Assembly: GCF_900115615.1 (NCBI RefSeq)
Contig: NZ_FOXB01000022.1
Location: forward strand, 1 to 37,068
DNA length: 37,068 nucleotides
DNA from: Hydrogenimonas thermophila
Lineage (GTDB): Bacteria > Campylobacterota > Campylobacteria > Campylobacterales > Hydrogenimonadaceae
Reading direction: 5' to 3'
In this document: one piece after another, positions 29,056 to 37,068 of the stretch
How the letters are laid out: each line of letters begins with the position of its first letter
Numbering within the stretch: position 1 is the stretch's first letter
The notes under the pieces: generated by a model
Told to the model about the DNA's origin: nothing
Seen by the model: the letters and a program-made list of their open reading frames with translations, nothing else
Databases searched by the model: none
Made by a program: the position numbers and the translations under genes

Positions 29056-30164
29056 AAATTTTAGTTTTAAATGCAGGAAGTTCATCTTTAAAATATAGAC
29101 TTTTTAAAGATTTAAAAGAGTTGGTTTCAGGTCAAATTGAGCATATTGGTGAAGATAGCGGAGTTAAAAACCATTATGAAGCTCTTTTACAGGTAGAAAA
29201 AGAGTTGACTTTTCGTGGACAAATGAGTTTTAAAGAGTTAGATGCCATAGGTCATAGGGTGGTTCACGGTGGAGAGAAGTTTACAGAGCCGGTGAAGATT
29301 AATGACAATGTAATAGAGGCAATTAAGGAAGTTTCATCCTTAGCTCCACTTCACAATCCGGCAAATCTTCAGGGAATTTTGATGATGAGAAAGCTTTTAC
29401 CAAATATTCCGCAAGTAGTAGTGTTTGATACTGCTTTTCATCAAACAATGGAGCCGGAAGCTTATCTTTATGCCATCCCTTATGAACTGTATGAGAAGTA
29501 TGGTATTCGTCGTTATGGATTTCACGGTACATCCCATGCATTTGTAGCAAAAAAGGCTTCAAAGCTTCTGAACAAACCATTAAAAAATCTAAATCTCATT
29601 ACCATTCATCTTGGAAATGGTGCAAGTGTATGTGCTATTAAAGAGGGGAAAAGTATTGAAACATCTATGGGATTTACACCTCTTGAGGGTTTGGTAATGG
29701 GAACAAGAAGTGGAGATACTGACCCTGAAATTCCTCTCTTTTTACAAAAGGTTGGTTTAAATGCTGATACAGTTTTAAATAAACAGAGTGGTTTGAAAGG
29801 AATTTGTGGTCAAAATGATATGCGAGAAGTAGAAAAGTTGGCTCTTAAAGGAGATGAAAAAGCCAAGTTGGCAATAAAGATTTTTGTACATAGAATTAAA
29901 AAATATATTGGAGCTTATAGCGCACTTCTTGGAAGGGTAGATGCAGTTATCTTTACTGCAGGAATTGGAGAGCATAGTTTACTTATTAGATCATTAGTTT
30001 GTGATGGTTTAGAGCCTATGGGAATGATTTTAGAGCAAGAACGAAATAAAAAAAATGAGACATTTATTTCAACAGATAATTCTATGGTAAAACTGATGGT
30101 AATACCGACAAATGAAGAGTTAGAAATTGCTCATCAAACAGAAATGGCTTTAAGGGATGATTAG
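29052..30164 (+). CDS. ackA: Acetate kinase
   Basis: AckA interconverts acetyl phosphate + ADP with acetate + ATP. With pta it provides acetate excretion or assimilation. The 370-aa protein is somewhat shorter than the usual 395-400 but has all landmarks: MKILVLNAGSSSLKY (phosphate 1), HRVVHGGEKF, the catalytic region VVFDTAFHQTM, GFHGTSHAFV, ITIHLGNGASVCAI (phosphate 2), MGTRSGDTDP and FTAGIGEHS. The shortening lies mainly in the N-terminal subdomain after residue 35. ATG 29052 is chosen because the family starts there and it overlaps the pta stop; the longer frame from 28992 lies inside pta. Confidence 0.96.
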   Translation: MKILVLNAGSSSLKYRLFKDLKELVSGQIEHIGEDSGVKNHYEALLQVEKELTFRGQMSFKELDAIGHRVVHGGEKFTEPVKINDNVIEAIKEVSSLAPLHNPANLQGILMMRKLLPNIPQVVVFDTAFHQTMEPEAYLYAIPYELYEKYGIRRYGFHGTSHAFVAKKASKLLNKPLKNLNLITIHLGNGASVCAIKEGKSIETSMGFTPLEGLVMGTRSGDTDPEIPLFLQKVGLNADTVLNKQSGLKGICGQNDMREVEKLALKGDEKAKLAIKIFVHRIKKYIGAYSALLGRVDAVIFTAGIGEHSLLIRSLVCDGLEPMGMILEQERNKKNETFISTDNSMVKLMVIPTNEELEIAHQTEMALRDD

Positions 30165-30165
30165 T

Positions 30166-30171
30166 TATAAT
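30166..30171 (+). promoter_or_regulatory. -10 box of gap
   Basis: A perfect TATAAT directly follows the ackA stop, 38 nt before the gap ATG. AAGGAG at 30198-30203 is the ribosome binding site. There is no clear -35, so read-through from ackA is also possible. Confidence 0.5.
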
Positions 30172-30208
30172 TTTTATAAACATTTACATATTTTTTTAAG
30201 GAGAATAG

Positions 30209-31204
30209 ATGGCAGTTAAAGTAGCGTTAAACGGGACGGGGCGTATCGGTCTATGTGTCATCAAGATCGTGATGGAACGTGACGATATGGAGCTTGTTGC
30301 ATTAAATACAACAGCAAAGCCTGAAATGCTTGAGTATCTTTTAAAGTATGACACTGTTCATAAAGGAATTGATGCAAAAGTTATTGATGATGAAACTATT
30401 GAGATTGCAGGCAAACCTGTTAAGATGTTCAGTGAACGTGATATTACAAAATTAGACTTTGGATCAGTTGGAGCTGAGGTTGTTGCAGAGTGTACAGGTG
30501 TGTTTTTAACAACAGAAAAAGCTCAACACTATCTTAAAGGAAGTGTAAAGAAAGTTGTTCTCAGTGCGCCTGCAAAAGATGATACACCAACTTTTGTTAT
30601 GAATATCAATACAGATACTTATGCAGGTCAGGCAATTGTTTCTAATGCAAGCTGTACTACAAATGCACTGGCACCGGTTTGTAAAGTACTTGATGATGCA
30701 TTTGGTATTGAAAATGGTCTTATGACTACGGTTCACTCTTACACTAACGACCAAAATCTTTTAGATGTAAAACATAAAAAAGATTTCCGCCGTGCTCGTG
30801 CCGCTGCGATGAATATGATTCCTACTTCAACAGGTGCAGCAAAGGCTATTGGTCTTGTTATGCCACACTTAAAGGGTAACTTGAACGGTTTTGCAATGCG
30901 TGTTCCAACAGCTGATGTATCTGTTGTTGATCTGACTGTTAATTTGAAAAAAGATGTAACAGTCGAGAGTATTAATGAAGCTTTTGTAAAAGCTAGTGAG
31001 AGTAACTTTAAAGGGCTTATAGAGATCGACAACGATAAGAGAGTCTCCGGTGACTTTATAGGATCAACTTATAGCTGTACTTTTGTACCAGATCTTACAC
31101 GTGTTGTTGGTGAGAAAACTGCAAAAGTGATAGCTTGGTATGACAATGAGTGGGGATATAGCTGCCGTATGGTAGATATGATGCATTTTGTTGCAACTCA
31201 CTAA
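30209..31204 (+). CDS. gap: Glyceraldehyde-3-phosphate dehydrogenase
   Basis: GAPDH interconverts glyceraldehyde-3-phosphate and 1,3-bisphosphoglycerate. The 331-aa protein shows the catalytic C149 in SNASCTTNALAP, the TVHSYT loop, RRARAAAMNMIPTSTGAAKA and YDNEWGYSCRM. The cofactor pocket differs from the textbook NAD form: the glycine motif is NGTGRIGL, not GFGRIGR, and the Asp that binds the adenine ribose is replaced (ALNTTAKPE, N33-T34). This suggests NADP+ or dual use, which would suit a gluconeogenic or autotrophic role alongside ppsA. Closely similar wording occurs, from memory, in C. jejuni GapA. Confidence 0.95.
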   Translation: MAVKVALNGTGRIGLCVIKIVMERDDMELVALNTTAKPEMLEYLLKYDTVHKGIDAKVIDDETIEIAGKPVKMFSERDITKLDFGSVGAEVVAECTGVFLTTEKAQHYLKGSVKKVVLSAPAKDDTPTFVMNINTDTYAGQAIVSNASCTTNALAPVCKVLDDAFGIENGLMTTVHSYTNDQNLLDVKHKKDFRRARAAAMNMIPTSTGAAKAIGLVMPHLKGNLNGFAMRVPTADVSVVDLTVNLKKDVTVESINEAFVKASESNFKGLIEIDNDKRVSGDFIGSTYSCTFVPDLTRVVGEKTAKVIAWYDNEWGYSCRMVDMMHFVATH

Positions 31205-31220
31205 TATCTTCTTTTTCTCT

Positions 31221-31245
31221 ATCAGGCGGTTAAAAACTGCCTGAT
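31221..31245. terminator. terminator after gap
   Basis: An 11-bp stem (ATCAGGCGGTT 31221-31231 with AACTGCCTGAT 31235-31245, one G-U) has a 3-nt AAA loop. It lies 17 nt after the gap stop and is followed by TAATTTGTATTATAG. The convergent 25-aa ORF ends 18 nt beyond it, so it may serve both strands. Confidence 0.7.
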
Positions 31246-31262
31246 TAATTTGTATTATAGTT

Positions 31263-31340
31263 TTACTTAGCTACTACAAATGCCTCATAGCTAAAAAATA
31301 GAATTACTGATAAAATTATTATCCCTATTAAAATTTCCAT
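31263..31340 (-). CDS. 25-aa single-helix membrane microprotein
   Basis: This is a tiny ORF: MEILIGIIILSVILFFSYEA continuing to the end FVVAK. Residues 2-17 form an uninterrupted hydrophobic helix long enough to span or insert in the membrane, with a short polar C-terminus ending in Lys. AGAGGAG (opposite 31350-31356) lies 9 nt before its ATG, an optimal site formed by the last codons (Leu-Glu-Glu-Leu) of the upstream 75-aa gene, and only 3 nt separate the two genes. It resembles KdpF- or CydX-type helper peptides in form only; I do not recognise the sequence. The strong start signal and tight coupling are what support it. Confidence 0.6.
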   Translation of the reverse strand: MEILIGIIILSVILFFSYEAFVVAK

Positions 31341-31343
31341 ATA

Positions 31344-31571
31344 TTATAGCTCCTCTAATGATTCAATTTTTTTTAAAATATTTTTATTTAAAAAATGGAT
31401 AGAAATAACTAACCAAATAATACCTACTACAGAGAGTAAAAATCTTATAGTTGAAATTTCATCATAATGAGAACTCAACCATCCAATAAGGCTAATTAGT
31501 GTAACTATAAATACACCCAACCACACTTTCAAATAATTTATTTTTTCTTTTACTACATCAATCTTTGCCAT
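31344..31571 (-). CDS. 75-aa two-helix membrane protein, possibly leaderless
   Basis: This small protein has two transmembrane segments (about 13-34, YLKVWLGVFIVTLISLIGW, and 43-63, FLLSVVGIIWLVISIHFL), separated by a short acidic turn (SSHYDEIS), and a charged C-terminal tail (KKIESLEEL). I do not recognise a family. The ATG at 31571 is preferred to the upstream TTG (31586), because TGATAAAAT ends only 5 nt before it: a promoter -10 box sits where a ribosome binding site would be, pointing to a leaderless transcript. It is followed at 3 nt by the 25-aa microprotein gene. It is convergent with gap and divergent from the LOG gene. Confidence 0.7.
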   Translation of the reverse strand: MAKIDVVKEKINYLKVWLGVFIVTLISLIGWLSSHYDEISTIRFLLSVVGIIWLVISIHFLNKNILKKIESLEEL

Positions 31572-31704
31572 AGAGTATTTTATCAAAAGGGAATTGATAA
31601 AGCAAACTATGTATATTTTTTATTCTTCAAATTGTATACTACTTATTAAATAGTTGGTTTAATTTTTTCTATATTTGGTTAAAATAAAAAAAGTGAGGAA
31701 AAAA

Positions 31705-32625
31705 ATGAGAAAAAAATATAGTAGTATACATTCAGAGTTTCCGTGGGAACACCCTAAATCAAAAAGTGAAGATCCAAAAGCTGTAAAGTTGGTTAAGCGG
31801 TTGATGGAGAGTGCTACTTATCGTCTTGCAGAAGATGATCCAGACTTTATGAAATCTTATGAGGCAAGAGGTGTTAGGTTAGAGATAGACTACCTTAAAG
31901 CTGAACTTGCTATGCAGAAGTTTGGGATCAAACATACTATAGTAGTATTTGGTAGTGCTCGCATAAAAGAGCGCAAGACAGCAATGTCAGAGCTTAAAGA
32001 GATACAAAAAAAGATTGAAGCACATCCAGAGAATAAAGAGCTTCTTGAACAACTGCGAATAGCAGAGAGAATGGTAGAGAAGAGTATCTACTATGATGAT
32101 GCCAGAATGTTTGGACGCTATATTGGAGAGAGTGGTAAGGGTCCTGATGATAGCCGGGTTGTATTAATGACTGGTGGAGGTCCTGGCATTATGGAAGCAG
32201 CTAACCGTGGATCTTATGATGTTGGTGCACGATCTATTGGACTTAATATTCGTTTGCCTCATGAACAGTTTCCAAACCCATACATTACACCGGAGTTATG
32301 TTTTCAGTTTCGATACTTTGCCATTCGTAAACTACACTTCTTTTTAAGATCAAAAGCTTTGGTTGTTTACCCTGGCGGATTTGGTACATTAGATGAACTT
32401 TTTGAAATTTTGACACTGGTACAGACACAAAAGACAAATATCATTCCTGTGGTTATGGTTGGAAAAAAGTATTGGAAAAAAGCGATTGATTTTGACTTTT
32501 TAAAAGAGGAAGGTGTTATAACTTCTCAAGATTTGGAGATATTTAAGATAGTAGAAAATGCTACTGAAGCTTGGAAGTATATTTTGGATTGGCATAAGCA
32601 TAAAGATACGCATCTGTTTATATGA
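31705..32625 (+). CDS. LOG-family (lysine decarboxylase-like) protein
   Basis: This is a 306-aa Rossmann-fold protein of the LOG/TIGR00730 superfamily, related to cytokinin-activating nucleoside-5'-monophosphate phosphoribohydrolases and to PpnN-like nucleotide hydrolases. The diagnostic PGGFGTLDELFE is present, preceded by RKLHFFLRSKALVVY with the conserved Arg, and by MTGGGPGIMEAANRG. The N-terminal 90 residues and a charged insert (about 95-140, SELKEIQKKIEAHPENKEL) make it longer than LOG itself. ATG 31705 has GAGG 8 nt upstream; the TTG at 31675 overlaps a TAAAAT -10 box (31680-31685) and is unlikely. It is 10 nt before ppsA, so the two are probably cotranscribed. The substrate is probably a nucleotide such as AMP. 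Confidence 0.88.
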   Translation: MRKKYSSIHSEFPWEHPKSKSEDPKAVKLVKRLMESATYRLAEDDPDFMKSYEARGVRLEIDYLKAELAMQKFGIKHTIVVFGSARIKERKTAMSELKEIQKKIEAHPENKELLEQLRIAERMVEKSIYYDDARMFGRYIGESGKGPDDSRVVLMTGGGPGIMEAANRGSYDVGARSIGLNIRLPHEQFPNPYITPELCFQFRYFAIRKLHFFLRSKALVVYPGGFGTLDELFEILTLVQTQKTNIIPVVMVGKKYWKKAIDFDFLKEEGVITSQDLEIFKIVENATEAWKYILDWHKHKDTHLFI

Positions 32626-32635
32626 AAGGAAAATA

Positions 32636-35038
32636 ATGAAGAATTATATCAAGTGGTTTGAAGAGATAACTATTGACGATGTACCTGAAGTAGGTGGTAA
32701 AAATGCTTCACTTGGAGAGATGTATCAAAATTTGAGTGAAGAGGGTGTTTTGGTTCCAAATGGATTTGCAATTACAGCTTCAGCCTATAAGTATGTGTTG
32801 GACTACAACAATGCATGGTCAAAACTTCATGCCTTGCTTGATGATTTGGATCCTGATGATGTAGAGCAGTTGCAAGCACGCTGTAAAGAGTGTAGAGATA
32901 TTATCTACTCTTGTGAACTACCTAATGACCTTAAAAAAGAGATTTTGTCAGGTTATGCGGAATTGAAAAAAGAGTATGGAGAGAGTGTTTCTCTAGCAGT
33001 ACGATCTTCTGCAACCGCAGAAGATTCACCTGAGGCATCTTTTGCAGGACAAAATGATACCTATCTTAATATATCTAGTGAAGATGCTCTTCTTGATGCA
33101 TATAAACGTTGTCTGGCTTCTAACTTTACAGATCGCTCCATACACTACAAGTATGATAATGGATTTGATTATCTTAAAGTATTGTTATCTGTTGTTGTAA
33201 TGAAAATGGTACGGTCTGACATTGGCTCAAGTGGTGTAATGTTTACACTCGATCCAGAGACTGGATTTAGTGACGTTATTTATATAAGTGCTTCTTATGG
33301 CTTGGGTGAAAATATTGTACAAGGTACTATAGACCCAGACAGTTTTTATGTGCATAAACCTACATTTAATAAAGGTTATCGTGCAGTACTTAAACGACGG
33401 TTAGGGAAAAAAGAGCTTAAGATGGTCTTTTCAGAAGAGCTTTTAAGAGACAATATTTCAATTGAATATACAAAAAATATATCTACAAAAGAGGATGAGC
33501 AAAAGAGGTTTTGCATCAGCGATGCAGATATTATGACTTTAGCTTTCTATGCTATTAAAATTGAAAATCACTACTCAAAGAGAGTTGGGCGCAGTATGCC
33601 TATGGATATAGAGTGGGCTAAAGATGGTATAGATGGGCAGATCTATGTGGTGCAGGCACGTCCTGAAACGGTAGAGTCTCAAAAAAGCGGAACAACTCTT
33701 GAAATTTACAAACTTAAAAGTAGGGGAGAACTGCTTGTAAGTGGTCACGCTGTTGGTATGAGAATAGGGACGGGCAGAGTAAGAGTCATTAAAAGTGTAG
33801 ATGAGTTGAGCCAGTTTAAGCCGGGTGAAGTATTGGTTACAGATACCACATCTCCAGACTGGGAGCCTGTGATGAAGACAGCTTCAGCCATAGTTACCAA
33901 CAGAGGCGGCAGAACCTGTCATGCGGCTATAGTCTCAAGAGAGCTTGGTATTCCTGCTGTTATTGGTGCTGAAGATGCTACAGATACTCTTAAAAATGGA
34001 ATGGAGGTGACTGTAAGTTGTGCAGAAGGGGAGGTGGGTTATGTTTATAATGGAAAGTTAGATTATGAGATAGAAAAGACAGATCTTTCTAAACTCTCCA
34101 AACCAGAAACAGAAATAATGATGAATCTTGGCAATCCAGATATAGCTTTTAGTTTGGCAAATCTTCCTGTTGATGGAGTAGGGCTTGCACGTATGGAGTT
34201 TATAATAAATGAGTATATAAAAGCCCACCCTATGGCGTTGATCCACCCAGAAAAGGTAGATGAAGAGACAAGAGCTAAACTTGAAGAGTTGAGCAAAGCC
34301 TATGAGAGTATGACGGAGTTTTTTGTAAAAACACTCTCTGAAGGTGTTGCAACAATTGCGGCTTCGGTCTATCCAAAACCGTGCATTGTTCGTATGAGTG
34401 ACTTTAAAAGCAATGAGTATGCAACTCTTTTAGGTGGAAAGTTCTTTGAGTTTGATGAAGAGAACCCAATGCTTGGTTTTAGAGGTGCGGCTCGTTATAC
34501 TCATCCTGCTTATGAAGAGGGGTTTGCGCTTGAGTGTGCTGCTATGAAACGTGTACGTGAAATAATGGGCTTTGATAATGTTGTTTTAATGATTCCTTTT
34601 TGCAGGCGTGTTGACGAGGGAAAAAAAGTGGTTAAAACGATGGCTAAGTATGGTTTGAAAAGGGGTGAGAATGGATTGAAGATTTATGTAATGTGCGAAA
34701 TTCCAAATAATGTTATTCAGATAGATGCTTTTAGTGAGGTTTTTGACGGATTTAGCATTGGAAGCAATGATTTAACTCAATTGGTACTTGGTGTAGATCG
34801 TGACAGTGAAGTTGTAGCATTTGATTATGATGAGCGTGATGCAGGAGTTCTTAAAATGGTAGAGTTGGCAATTGAAGGCGGCAAAAGAAATGGACGGTAT
34901 GTAGGTTTTTGTGGACAGGCACCATCAGACTACCCAGAGATAGCAGAGTTTCTTGTAAAACAAGGGATAGATTCAATAAGTTTAAATCCTGATACTGTTT
35001 TAAAAACATTGCAAGATATGGGAAAATATACAAGTTGA
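32636..35038 (+). CDS. ppsA: Phosphoenolpyruvate synthase
   Basis: PpsA converts pyruvate + ATP to PEP + AMP + Pi, the entry to gluconeogenesis. The 800-aa protein has the N-terminal ATP-grasp domain (about 1-345, VGGKNASLGEMY, VRSSATAEDSPEASFAGQ), the swivelling phosphohistidine domain with H429 in GGRTCHAAIVSRELGIPAV, and the C-terminal TIM barrel with the catalytic C759 in GFCGQAPSDYPE and SIGSNDLTQLVLGVDRD. Gly-Gly-Arg-Thr-Cys-His matches PEP synthase rather than pyruvate phosphate dikinase, as does the length. AAAGGAAA precedes the ATG at 32636. Together with gap, pta and ackA it links acetate and C3 metabolism. Confidence 0.96.
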   Translation: MKNYIKWFEEITIDDVPEVGGKNASLGEMYQNLSEEGVLVPNGFAITASAYKYVLDYNNAWSKLHALLDDLDPDDVEQLQARCKECRDIIYSCELPNDLKKEILSGYAELKKEYGESVSLAVRSSATAEDSPEASFAGQNDTYLNISSEDALLDAYKRCLASNFTDRSIHYKYDNGFDYLKVLLSVVVMKMVRSDIGSSGVMFTLDPETGFSDVIYISASYGLGENIVQGTIDPDSFYVHKPTFNKGYRAVLKRRLGKKELKMVFSEELLRDNISIEYTKNISTKEDEQKRFCISDADIMTLAFYAIKIENHYSKRVGRSMPMDIEWAKDGIDGQIYVVQARPETVESQKSGTTLEIYKLKSRGELLVSGHAVGMRIGTGRVRVIKSVDELSQFKPGEVLVTDTTSPDWEPVMKTASAIVTNRGGRTCHAAIVSRELGIPAVIGAEDATDTLKNGMEVTVSCAEGEVGYVYNGKLDYEIEKTDLSKLSKPETEIMMNLGNPDIAFSLANLPVDGVGLARMEFIINEYIKAHPMALIHPEKVDEETRAKLEELSKAYESMTEFFVKTLSEGVATIAASVYPKPCIVRMSDFKSNEYATLLGGKFFEFDEENPMLGFRGAARYTHPAYEEGFALECAAMKRVREIMGFDNVVLMIPFCRRVDEGKKVVKTMAKYGLKRGENGLKIYVMCEIPNNVIQIDAFSEVFDGFSIGSNDLTQLVLGVDRDSEVVAFDYDERDAGVLKMVELAIEGGKRNGRYVGFCGQAPSDYPEIAEFLVKQGIDSISLNPDTVLKTLQDMGKYTS

Positions 35039-35057
35039 ATGGGCGGAAGTTTAGAAG

Positions 35058-35104
35058 TGGTGGGCCAACCAGGACTCGAACCTGGGACCATCCGGTTATG
35101 AGCC
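35058..35104 (-). other. attachment site: 3' half of tRNA-Met(CAT)
   Basis: Read on the minus strand, this 47-nt piece is GGCTCATAACCGGATGG, a T-arm CCAGGTTCGAGTCCTGG and the acceptor end GGCCCACCA. The CAT anticodon is opposite 35098-35100. The 3' half of the tRNA is complete with encoded CCA, but 5' of the anticodon loop only GG of the stem is left; the sequence beyond 35104 gives neither the D-arm nor the 5' acceptor strand. It cannot fold as a tRNA. An integrase follows at 35255, so this is best read as the duplicated tRNA end left by site-specific integration with crossover near the anticodon loop. Confidence 0.9.
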
Positions 35105-35161
35105 TCTTTAAAGCACTTTTCTACATTTTATTAAACTTTCATCAAATTATATCTAAATCCC

Positions 35162-35191
35162 TTGAAATCGTTGTTTTAAAGATGTTATACT
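35162..35191 (+). promoter_or_regulatory. integrase promoter
   Basis: TTGAAA (35162-35167) is followed after 18 nt by TATACT (35186-35191) with an extended TG at 35183-35184. The predicted start is near 35198, leaving a leader of about 57 nt. The boxes lie between two copies of TCATCAA (35139-35145, 35193-35199) and an inverted pair ATTAAACTT (35130-35138) / AAGTTTAAT (35198-35206), so recombinase or repressor binding here would cover the promoter. Confidence 0.6.
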
Positions 35192-35231
35192 ATCATCAAG
35201 TTTAATCAATAAAAAGCTACTTTTTTAAATT

Positions 35232-35253
35232 TAGGGTAGCAATAGGGTAGCAA
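35232..35253 (+). repeat. tandem 11-bp repeat abutting the integrase start codon
   Basis: TAGGGTAGCAA occurs twice, head to tail with no spacer (35232-35242 and 35243-35253), one base before the ATG at 35255. It covers the position where a ribosome binding site would be, and no better Shine-Dalgarno is present. Short direct repeats beside an integrase are typical of arm-type recombinase sites; an autoregulatory role is inference. Confidence 0.8.
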
Positions 35254-35254
35254 A

Positions 35255-36370
35255 ATGGCAAGAGTAAGAAGTAAAAAGTATCCGGGCGTATATCTTAACA
35301 AGTTAGAAAATGGAGATATTAGCTACTCAATAACTTATAAAGATGAGCAGGATAAAAAAGTATGGCTAACAGTTGGCAGGAAAAGCCAAGGTATAACAGA
35401 GCCTTTTTGTAATCAAAAGCGTAATGAGATATTAAATAAAATTAGACTTGGAGAGGATATACCAGTAAAACATAAAAAGAGAAATCGCTACACTCTACAA
35501 AATGCATTTGATGATTATATAGAGTGGGCAAAAGTTAATAAGAAAACGTGGGAGAAAAATGACAAAGGAACATATGAGAAACATATAGAGCCAGATTTTG
35601 GAAAACGTGGACTTACCTCTTTAACATCAGAGGACTTTGAAAAGCTAAAAACTAAGAAGCTACAAGAGGGATTATCTCCAAAGACAGTACAGCATATACT
35701 TGGAACTGCAAGACAGATTATAAACTATGCTATCCGTAACAAAAAGGTTAAAAACTTTGAAAACCCGATAGGTAACGGACGGGTAAAAATGCCAAAGATA
35801 GATAACCAGAAATTAGGATTTTTTACAAAAGAGCAGGCTACAGAGCTATTAAAAAGGCTAAAGCAACTAAAGTCAAAGAGGATGTATTATCTAACTCTTA
35901 TTTTACTGCATACTGGAGCCAGATTCAGTGAAGTGGCATCTCTTACTTGGCAGGATGTAAACTTTGATAATAATCTGATTTACTTCAAAGCTACAAAAGA
36001 TGGCAAAGCACGTCATATTGTTATGAGTGAACCTCTAAGAGAAGCTATAGAGGAACTATACGAAAACAGAACATCAAACCTTGTTATACCAAGTAAGAAT
36101 GGAGAGCAGATTGCACAAATGCCAAGGCAATGGCAGTTAATAGTAGATGAGCTGATACAAGGTAACAGTAAAGCAGGAAAGTATCGCTTAACAGTCCATA
36201 GTTTACGGCATACACACGCTAGTTGGTTAGCAATGGCAGGGATGGATTTAATGCATATACAACAACAGCTTGGACATAAAACTATTGAGATGACGCAACG
36301 ATACAGCCATTTAATACCAGATAAAAGGCACGAAATGACGCAAGAGATTTTTAAAAAGGTTGAGGTATGA
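35255..36370 (+). CDS. int: tyrosine recombinase (integrase)
   Basis: This is a 371-aa phage/ICE-type tyrosine recombinase. It has an N-terminal arm-binding region (about 1-65, beta-rich, starting MARVRSKKYPGVYLNKLENG), a SAM-like core-binding domain (about 80-180) and a C-terminal catalytic domain. The catalytic residues are visible: R223 in HTGARFSEVASL, H315 and R318 in HSLRHTH, H341 in GHKTIEMTQRY and Y350. It is complete and apparently intact. It presumably catalyses integration at, and excision from, the tRNA-Met fragment 150 nt upstream. Its start codon is preceded by a tandem 11-bp repeat rather than a usual ribosome binding site, and its stop overlaps the next gene as ATGA. Confidence 0.95.
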   Translation: MARVRSKKYPGVYLNKLENGDISYSITYKDEQDKKVWLTVGRKSQGITEPFCNQKRNEILNKIRLGEDIPVKHKKRNRYTLQNAFDDYIEWAKVNKKTWEKNDKGTYEKHIEPDFGKRGLTSLTSEDFEKLKTKKLQEGLSPKTVQHILGTARQIINYAIRNKKVKNFENPIGNGRVKMPKIDNQKLGFFTKEQATELLKRLKQLKSKRMYYLTLILLHTGARFSEVASLTWQDVNFDNNLIYFKATKDGKARHIVMSEPLREAIEELYENRTSNLVIPSKNGEQIAQMPRQWQLIVDELIQGNSKAGKYRLTVHSLRHTHASWLAMAGMDLMHIQQQLGHKTIEMTQRYSHLIPDKRHEMTQEIFKKVEV

Positions 36371-36936
36371 AATATAAAACTCCAGTATCTTTAACTTTTT
36401 ATGAGCTTGAAGATGGTTATTCAATGATAAGAGAAGCTATAGAGGAGGCTAAAAGATATTTAAAAATGAAAATTATACATCCTTGTAATTATCTACCTGA
36501 TAACTGTAAGGAAAAGAGAAAAATAGAGAAGATGATCGAATCTGAAAGTAAAGAATATTTATACAAATTAGAGAATCTTGCAAAAGATAGTTTTCTTGAA
36601 GAAATTCTTTTGACTGGAGGAACTGAAGCAATAGAGATAGTTAGTGATAGACTGATATATAACATTGTTTCAAAATCGGCTTTTATTGATAGTATTATTT
36701 TTCAGATTTATTCTACAAGGAATAGAATAGGATGTTATAAAGCATTATATAGAGAGTTATCAGATATAAATGAATGTATGAATTATGGATTCTATGATAA
36801 AACTATTCGCAAGGTTACTGCAAATATCACTTCAAAAATTTGGGGAAAAGAAACATCAATAAGAAATAAAGTTATAAAGAGATATTCCTCGTCATATTAT
36901 CTACCCTCGTATAATACATTTATAGAAATAATTTAG
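36367..36936 (+). CDS. unknown protein translationally coupled to the integrase
   Basis: This 189-aa protein is unrecognised. Its start overlaps the integrase stop (ATGA), so it is almost certainly cotranslated with it. The product is rich in Lys, Ile, Glu, Ser and Tyr, without signal peptide, transmembrane helix, P-loop or Cys-pair zinc motif. The first half is strongly helical (YSMIREAIEEAKRYLK, then KRKIEKMIESES); the C-terminal third is basic and tyrosine-rich (RNKVIKRYSSSYYLPSY). It is too long for a typical excisionase. Possible roles include recombination control, immunity or cargo, but none is supported by a motif. The stop at 36934-36936 is inside the window, so the gene is complete. 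Confidence 0.8.
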   Translation: MKYKTPVSLTFYELEDGYSMIREAIEEAKRYLKMKIIHPCNYLPDNCKEKRKIEKMIESESKEYLYKLENLAKDSFLEEILLTGGTEAIEIVSDRLIYNIVSKSAFIDSIIFQIYSTRNRIGCYKALYRELSDINECMNYGFYDKTIRKVTANITSKIWGKETSIRNKVIKRYSSSYYLPSYNTFIEII

Positions 36937-37068
36937 AGATTTTCATCCAAAAAGGATTGAAAAATTAACTCTAAATTATTACTATCAAGAATGAAGAAAT
37001 TAGACTTCAGATCTTTAACTTAATCACAGTCTAACCAAAGAGCTAAAAAGTCTTTTTATACCCCCTGT

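Follow-up and report, generated by a model that had tools for sequence, protein, structure and literature searches.

Class II holins and antiholins of the phage 21 S type are two-helix hairpins of 65–95 aa with a charged C-terminus and a membrane partner peptide. TisB, Fst and AapA1 are small membrane toxins of type I toxin-antitoxin (TA) systems, and in TA modules in general antitoxin-first is the commoner gene order. The helper microproteins KdpF, CydX and CcoS are encoded by short single-helix ORFs at operon ends.

In this study, we analyzed a pair of small membrane protein genes, here termed A and B, located in a stretch of 37,068 nucleotides from Hydrogenimonas thermophila (contig NZ_FOXB01000022.1; the window). 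The two genes make up a self-contained unit that is horizontally mobile and belongs to an uncatalogued family; the gene pair, its coupling layout, its conservation and its mobility are well supported. The features of the locus are listed in Table 1. As described in the sequence-only reading, A is followed by B on the minus strand with a gap of 3 nt according to the sequence and the ORF list, and the start signal of B is made from the last codons of A. These codons (TTA GAG GAG CTA TAA) contain the motif AGAGGAG at a distance of 9 nt from the ATG of B. Upstream of A the order is TGATAAAAT-ACTCT-ATG; this −10-like box was absent from the sequence-only reading. The program-made ORF list puts the start of A at a TTG (31586), while the family alignment favors the ATG given in Table 1. 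The pair sits between gap (ending at 31204) and a LOG-like gene, both named from their translations and both on the plus strand, and is antiparallel to the two. The hairpin between gap and B is terminator-like for gap on the plus strand; read on the minus strand, it comes right after the end of B and has no T run. No tRNA was found at 30000–37068 of the window, and an Rfam search of 31000–31900 for structured RNA gave no match. Near the right edge of the window, about 3.7 kb from the pair, a plus-strand gene (35255–36370) encodes a 371-aa protein that by eye resembles a tyrosine-recombinase-like integrase.

Table 1. Features of the A/B locus in the window
Feature	Position	Strand	Description
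ORF A	31344..31571	−	75 aa, predicted two-helix hairpin membrane protein; ATG at 31571, TAA at 31346–31344
ORF B	31263..31340	−	25 aa, predicted single-helix membrane protein; ATG at 31340, TAA ending at 31263
AGAGGAG, Shine-Dalgarno sequence of B	31350..31356	−	inside the last codons of A
TGATAAAAT, extended −10-like box	31577..31585	−	ends 5 nt before the ATG of A; predicts a leaderless mRNA
Hairpin	31221..31245		between the convergent gap gene and B; 1 found, 0.3 expected

To count B, 153 distinct A proteins were collected, 29 of which were not intact and two too near a contig end, leaving 122. A hydrophobic B-like ORF (20–50 aa, −13 to +15 nt from A) follows 119 of these 122 intact homologues, whereas among 952 control genes taken from these loci only 21 have one; with ATG and a Shine-Dalgarno (SD) core in addition, such an ORF is found behind 3/952 control genes. 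The three cases without B are a frameshifted A with intact B (L015), an apparent A-B deletion fusion (L157) and a divergent A (L049). Among the 119 pairs, B starts with ATG in 116 and with GTG in three, its median length is 29 aa, and the commonest spacing is −1 (TAATG overlap; 59/119). An SD core (GGAG, AGGA or GAGG) precedes B in 108 pairs and in 105 it also precedes the stop codon of A. The nested start signal, regarded in the sequence-only reading as a selected feature, is thus family-wide, and because the SD core lies inside the coding end of A, the conserved A ends LEEL and LKDL are partly the start signal of B.

Purifying selection acts on both frames, with pooled pN/pS values of 0.25 for A and 0.32 for B in the nine-member window clade (pN<pS in 36/36 pairs) and of 0.31 and 0.46, respectively, in 13 poribacterial pairs, these values being rough since synonymous sites are near saturation (pS near 0.7). 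Furthermore, the distance matrices of A and B correlate (r=0.59, 119 pairs; maximum of 500 permutations 0.065). Joint inheritance of two small linked genes is a trait of TA modules, and the co-occurrence and the correlation indicate it for A and B. Hence, both the co-occurrence and the codon-level conservation that had been proposed as checks were observed, and stops or frameshifts of B in relatives keeping A, named beforehand as evidence against a conserved B frame, did not appear.

From a −10 box located 5–6 nt before the ATG, many A genes are predicted to be leaderless. An exact TATAAT ends 0–9 nt before the ATG of A in 45 of 117 pairs, in 41 of these at 5 or 6 nt; TGn precedes the box in 32/45, and one-mismatch boxes add a further 16 of the 117. 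For control genes the corresponding counts are 18/897 (exact) and 55/897 (one mismatch). An SD sequence before A is present in 22/117 pairs vs 324/897 control genes. With a transcription start 6–7 nt downstream of the −10 box, the first base of the transcript would be at the ATG of A. In Poribacteria, the exact TATAAT-ATG layout occurs in 0/13 pairs. Leaderless genes with gnTAnaAT directly before the ATG are known from Epsilonproteobacteria and reportedly show little conservation from one species to the next (PMC3847290); by this account, a family carrying its own leaderless start would be unusual.

With A as query, matches at E≤1 were obtained in 42 of 60 related genomes, many of them by chance, with about 20 places at E≤1e-3. 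A 17-row A profile (E≤1e-3) matched in 108 of 397 Campylobacterota genomes and 43 of 68 genera, including some fragments and some matches with stops; the highest numbers per genome were ten (G089) and eight each (G191 and G296). Across 84,980 named species genomes, 80 loci were retrieved, 49 in Campylobacterota, 18 in Poribacteria and 13 in others, namely Thiosymbion, Methylococcaceae and relatives, Hydrogenovibrio, a betaproteobacterium, Binatia and Nitrospinota as well as Patescibacteria, Parcubacteria and Bacteroidales bins, which may be misbinned. The nearest A proteins are 65–79% identical and come from other genomes, including Nitratifractor (L116) and Sulfurovum (L124, L117). Within the genus (18 genomes), full-length A members are confined to the genome that contains the window; in the other 17 no full-length A was found, the matches being partial, within longer frames and at E≥5e-4. 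The own genome contains a second pair between rmlA and rmlB (G000:C1:4815, L050) and a third, divergent one (L184; G000:C72, minus strand near 1897–2061), whose B ends ...KKHWKIADIL. The B type of L184 recurs in arrays of two other genomes, G416 and G050.

Plasmid addiction as the main habitat was rejected, as only 2 of 72,556 plasmid records match. The 3.7-kb Campylobacter coli plasmid pN29710-2 (L159), with rep and mob genes, carries an A homologue; A is unannotated there, and the stop of B is immediately followed by another ATG frame that looks like B. Further homologues are located on another small plasmid, in Helicobacter prophage records and on one viral-collection contig (L078).

The genes next to the 119 pairs are on the same strand on both sides in 59 cases, and both on the other strand in 12. 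Several copies are tightly embedded in operons, the junctions measuring −11 to +22 nt (gene names from translations): pgk-[AB]-tpiA (L131), tpiA-[AB]-fabI (L090), rmlA-[AB]-rmlB (L050, L147) and one rml operon with two modules (L105), in which one junction is longer; further operon seats follow gltX (L019) and hom (L138). As the gap-LOG gene order is not conserved across the genus, the window copy offers no clean comparison with an empty site, and insertion sites were compared for the operon copies instead. In relatives L216–L245, where both genes were found, the pgk/tpiA junctions are empty (about −6 to +27 nt, no A detected), and in L230 another gene lies between pgk and tpiA. In the same way, rmlA and rmlB abut or overlap without A in L188, L189, L191, L192, L196, L199, L205, L208, L209 and L215, and the gaps are longer, still without A, in L193, L201 and L214. 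Compared with its relative L216, L131 has a shorter pgk end, and the pgk stop codon is part of the TGATATAATG box. A helper microprotein should show constant association with genes of a complex, and here the neighbors are unlike between loci. The idea of a KdpF/CydX/CcoS-like helper of one membrane complex, raised in the sequence-only reading, was therefore rejected as the main reading; in addition, several copies occur per genome and same-genus relatives lack the pair.

AlphaFold2 (101 rows) predicted A as a hairpin with helices at 3–34 and 41–74 (mean pLDDT 93.2, pTM 0.72). Foldseek searches of PDB and BFVD with this fold gave nothing at E≤1e-3, the best matches (0.42 in PDB, 0.17 in BFVD) being generic helical hairpins. 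In a read-through A-B fusion alignment, B-only rows aligned to the first helix of A, so that a fold based on it would be meaningless. The number of K+R in A is about 3.5 in the first 16 residues, about 3.9 in the last 16 and 1.2 in the loop; in B it is about 0.1 in the first six and about 1.6 in the last nine residues. From these charges and the positive-inside rule, we infer that both ends of A and the C-terminus of B are cytoplasmic.

Neither window product matched Pfam at E up to 1, and NCBIfam and PHROGs gave chance-level matches only. In Pfam, NCBIfam, PHROGs, PADLOC and PDB, searched by sequence, neither a convincing match for the pair nor a match to a known TA family was obtained, so that the earlier impression of a pair resembling no known family holds for these libraries; its absence from them is probably due to B being below annotation length. 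Among 106 A members, phrog_785 (holin) matches six (best E 1e-5; window A itself without match), SLATT_4 seven (best 0.0027) and SLATT_5 one (0.00023), and the best PADLOC match is 0.00026. Such weak holin or effector matches are what any hydrophobic helix can give, and no convincing match to a SLATT/2TM effector profile was among them. Searches of the open-access literature found no paper on the A/B pair or on the repeat described below as a cassette border.

Decaying copies were classed by eye. In 11 of them (L102, L128, L094, L118, L121, L095, L007, L071, L034:1836, L015 and L008), A is broken by a frameshift, stop or internal deletion and B is intact; in L156:2435 and L134:1145, the 5′ part of A is lost and B is likewise intact. 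The A start is altered in L026, L111 and L150, and both genes are lost or fused in L092, L041, L146, L113:8846 and L157. The decay state of L103, L062:696, L148, L123 and L132 is ambiguous by eye, L091 and L104 turned out to be intact on inspection, and contig ends truncate L045, L075 and L129:3360. L049 contains two divergent A without B; this lineage aside, an intact A with a clearly destroyed B was not seen among the decayed copies inspected. Behind 5 of 118 pairs there are additional B copies that lack their own A, and one unit of the L253 array resembles an A remnant with an intact B end. This pattern fits a B that is harmless or useful without A and an A that is not kept without B. Considering lengths alone, 11 of 11 breaks falling on A corresponds to p about 0.03, and the asymmetry does not settle which protein is toxic, since an early stop in A would also silence the coupled B.

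Judging from its behavior in genomes, we tentatively favor, while stopping short of calling it probable, that A/B is a membrane TA-like addiction or defense module with A as effector and B as neutralizer. A would probably be made from a leaderless mRNA starting at or next to its ATG, and B would be translated by ribosomes finishing A, via the SD sequence inside the end of A, so that B would be made whenever A is. A would be a helical hairpin whose charged ends both face the cytoplasm, as in class II holins or small effectors with two helices, and B would form a single helix with its positive end inside. A may assemble in the membrane and perturb it, whereas B would pair with A inside the membrane and keep it inactive; loss or stress unbalancing the pair would then release A. 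This reading draws on the layout shared by 119/122 homologues, the purifying selection on both genes and the A-B distance correlation, on the element-like distribution (patchy, up to 10 matches per genome, plasmid and prophage copies), and on the 11 broken-A/intact-B copies, the predicted hairpin and the weak holin, 2TM/4TM and SLATT matches. Against it stand the small number of plasmid records, below what a plasmid addiction module would lead one to expect, weak decay statistics from copies classed by eye, the poribacterial copies without the TATAAT-ATG layout, and the rml-operon seats shared by several subfamilies in different genomes. Of the roles that the sequence-only reading had left open, toxin/antitoxin or defense fits the distribution better than complex subunit.

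Some modules are accompanied by short repeats. GGTGTCAGGCAC or GGGGTCAGACCC repeats occur within 200 nt downstream of 13 of 112 modules with enough flank vs 2 of 858 control genes, the repeat pattern for this count having been chosen after seeing some cases; most modules are without such a repeat, and none is present in the window. An array in G416 (L253:10809-13409, G416:C1) consists of five consecutive modules with several A types, all on one strand. Each has TATAAT or TACAAT 5–6 nt before the ATG, and a GGTGTCAGGCAC repeat (unit of about 60 nt, 7–8 copies) comes after every module. In G050 (L252, G050:C17), 25 repeats were counted over 20 kb, of which all but two (23) fall within the first 8.3 kb, among seven A-like genes, one of which is broken and for not all of which B was detected, and a RAYT-type Y1 transposase (L252:7113-7853; PF01797, 4e-17). 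The transposase gene is itself preceded by a repeat and a −10 box adjoining its ATG. Eight genomes were tested: Y1_Tnp is present in G000, G050 and G416 and absent from the other five, and no integron integrase over the cut-off was found in six, including the same three. With an integrase in only two genomes (G049 and G296), integrons were rejected as a general habitat. On contig G296:C44, the integron integrase lies about 12 kb from a broken A copy; no other convincing repeat was found between the modules of G296. For the A type starting MKKETLKE no relationship to the family profile could be detected, and for others it is marginal.

A wider reading, possible but doubtful, is that the pair belongs to a class of interchangeable mobile two-gene membrane cassettes, an integron-like world without an integron, and represents a new kind of TA system, composed of two tiny integral membrane proteins. 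Several unrelated-looking A/B types would then share one design, i.e. a −10 box abutting the ATG, a two-helix A, a nested start and a one-helix B. The cassettes would move between bacteria and seat at gene junctions of housekeeping operons, and some Campylobacterota would accumulate them in arrays that are bordered by repeats and associated with a Y1 (RAYT-type) transposase.

The purifying selection on both genes would also fit a membrane micro-complex of ordinary physiology, such as a KdpF/CydX-like stress or transport helper, that spread horizontally. A recurrent seat adjoins rmlB (L050, L105, L147, L048), the rml-operon seats of several subfamilies (L050, L105, L147) could mean that the function is tied to that pathway, and further surface-sugar neighbors were read as hldD-like (L143) and NeuB/PseI-like (L040). 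However, the neighbors elsewhere are unrelated (pgk/tpiA, tpiA/fabI, gltX, recR, hom, nuo-like), the same operons have empty junctions in relatives, and several paralogues occur per genome, and we consider this explanation unlikely.

The decay pattern would also arise with reversed roles, B (25–33 aa) being a membrane toxin and A a membrane-embedded antitoxin or immunity protein made first, as a broken A would silence the coupled B. In its size, single helix and cationic C-terminus B resembles type I toxins, and the gene order would be the usual antitoxin-first one; this arrangement nevertheless seems rather improbable to us, with extra B copies persisting after 5/118 pairs without an own A and with the apparent A remnant beside an intact B end in the L253 array. 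An equally low probability is assigned to a phage defense (abortive infection) pair, in which B would hold a two-helix membrane effector A until its release on infection. The patchy, multicopy and mobile occurrence, the weak matches of A to 2TM/4TM effector, SLATT and CARF-TM models, and the TA-type genes (YoeB, HicB, HEPN/MNT, AbiEii, PIN) that make up five of ten hand-picked neighbors scanned would suit this role, but the effector matches are unspecific (E about 1e-4 to 0.1), the pair is not accompanied by a sensor gene, and copies sit in housekeeping operons. Finally, that B is an untranslated chance ORF, which its 25 aa below annotation limits might suggest, is already contradicted by the co-occurrence counts and pN/pS of B and is hardly credible.

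The A/B pair occurs in roughly a quarter of the sampled Campylobacterota genomes and in other phyla without having an entry in the main family libraries. If the TA-like reading is true, it would be a TA type in which the contact between the partners takes place within the membrane, the first gene is leaderless and the coupling is hard-wired. Moreover, the clean operon seats together with the repeat-punctuated arrays would provide a tractable case of very small genes moving and surviving.

Compared with known systems, the G416 and G050 modules are reminiscent of integron arrays and REP/RAYT elements by their arrangement with a short repeat and by the Y1 transposase in L252, but no integrase over the cut-off is found in these two genomes and the window copy is without repeat. 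B is like KdpF, CydX and CcoS in being a short single-helix ORF at an operon end, whereas its partner is another small protein instead of a large complex and its neighbors are unconserved. With type II-style bicistronic TA systems the pair shares short overlapping genes, mobility, decaying copies and several copies per genome; it differs in that both products are membrane helices without a TA family match. SLATT and 2TM/4TM CBASS-type effectors resemble A in their two membrane helices and weak profile matches, but A is a stand-alone protein of 75 aa with no nucleotide sensor noticed beside it. Type I toxins and B are alike as tiny cationic single helices with multicopy, patchy occurrence, while A/B consists of two coupled proteins and the region is without an Rfam match. 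Class II holins, finally, resemble A in the two-helix hairpin predicted for it, the charged C-terminus and the putative membrane partner (phrog_785 weak, 6/106). No lysis cassette was noticed beside the loci read, and in contrast to the holins A/B is found in bacterial operons and arrays, and its partner is a separate one-helix ORF with a nested start signal.
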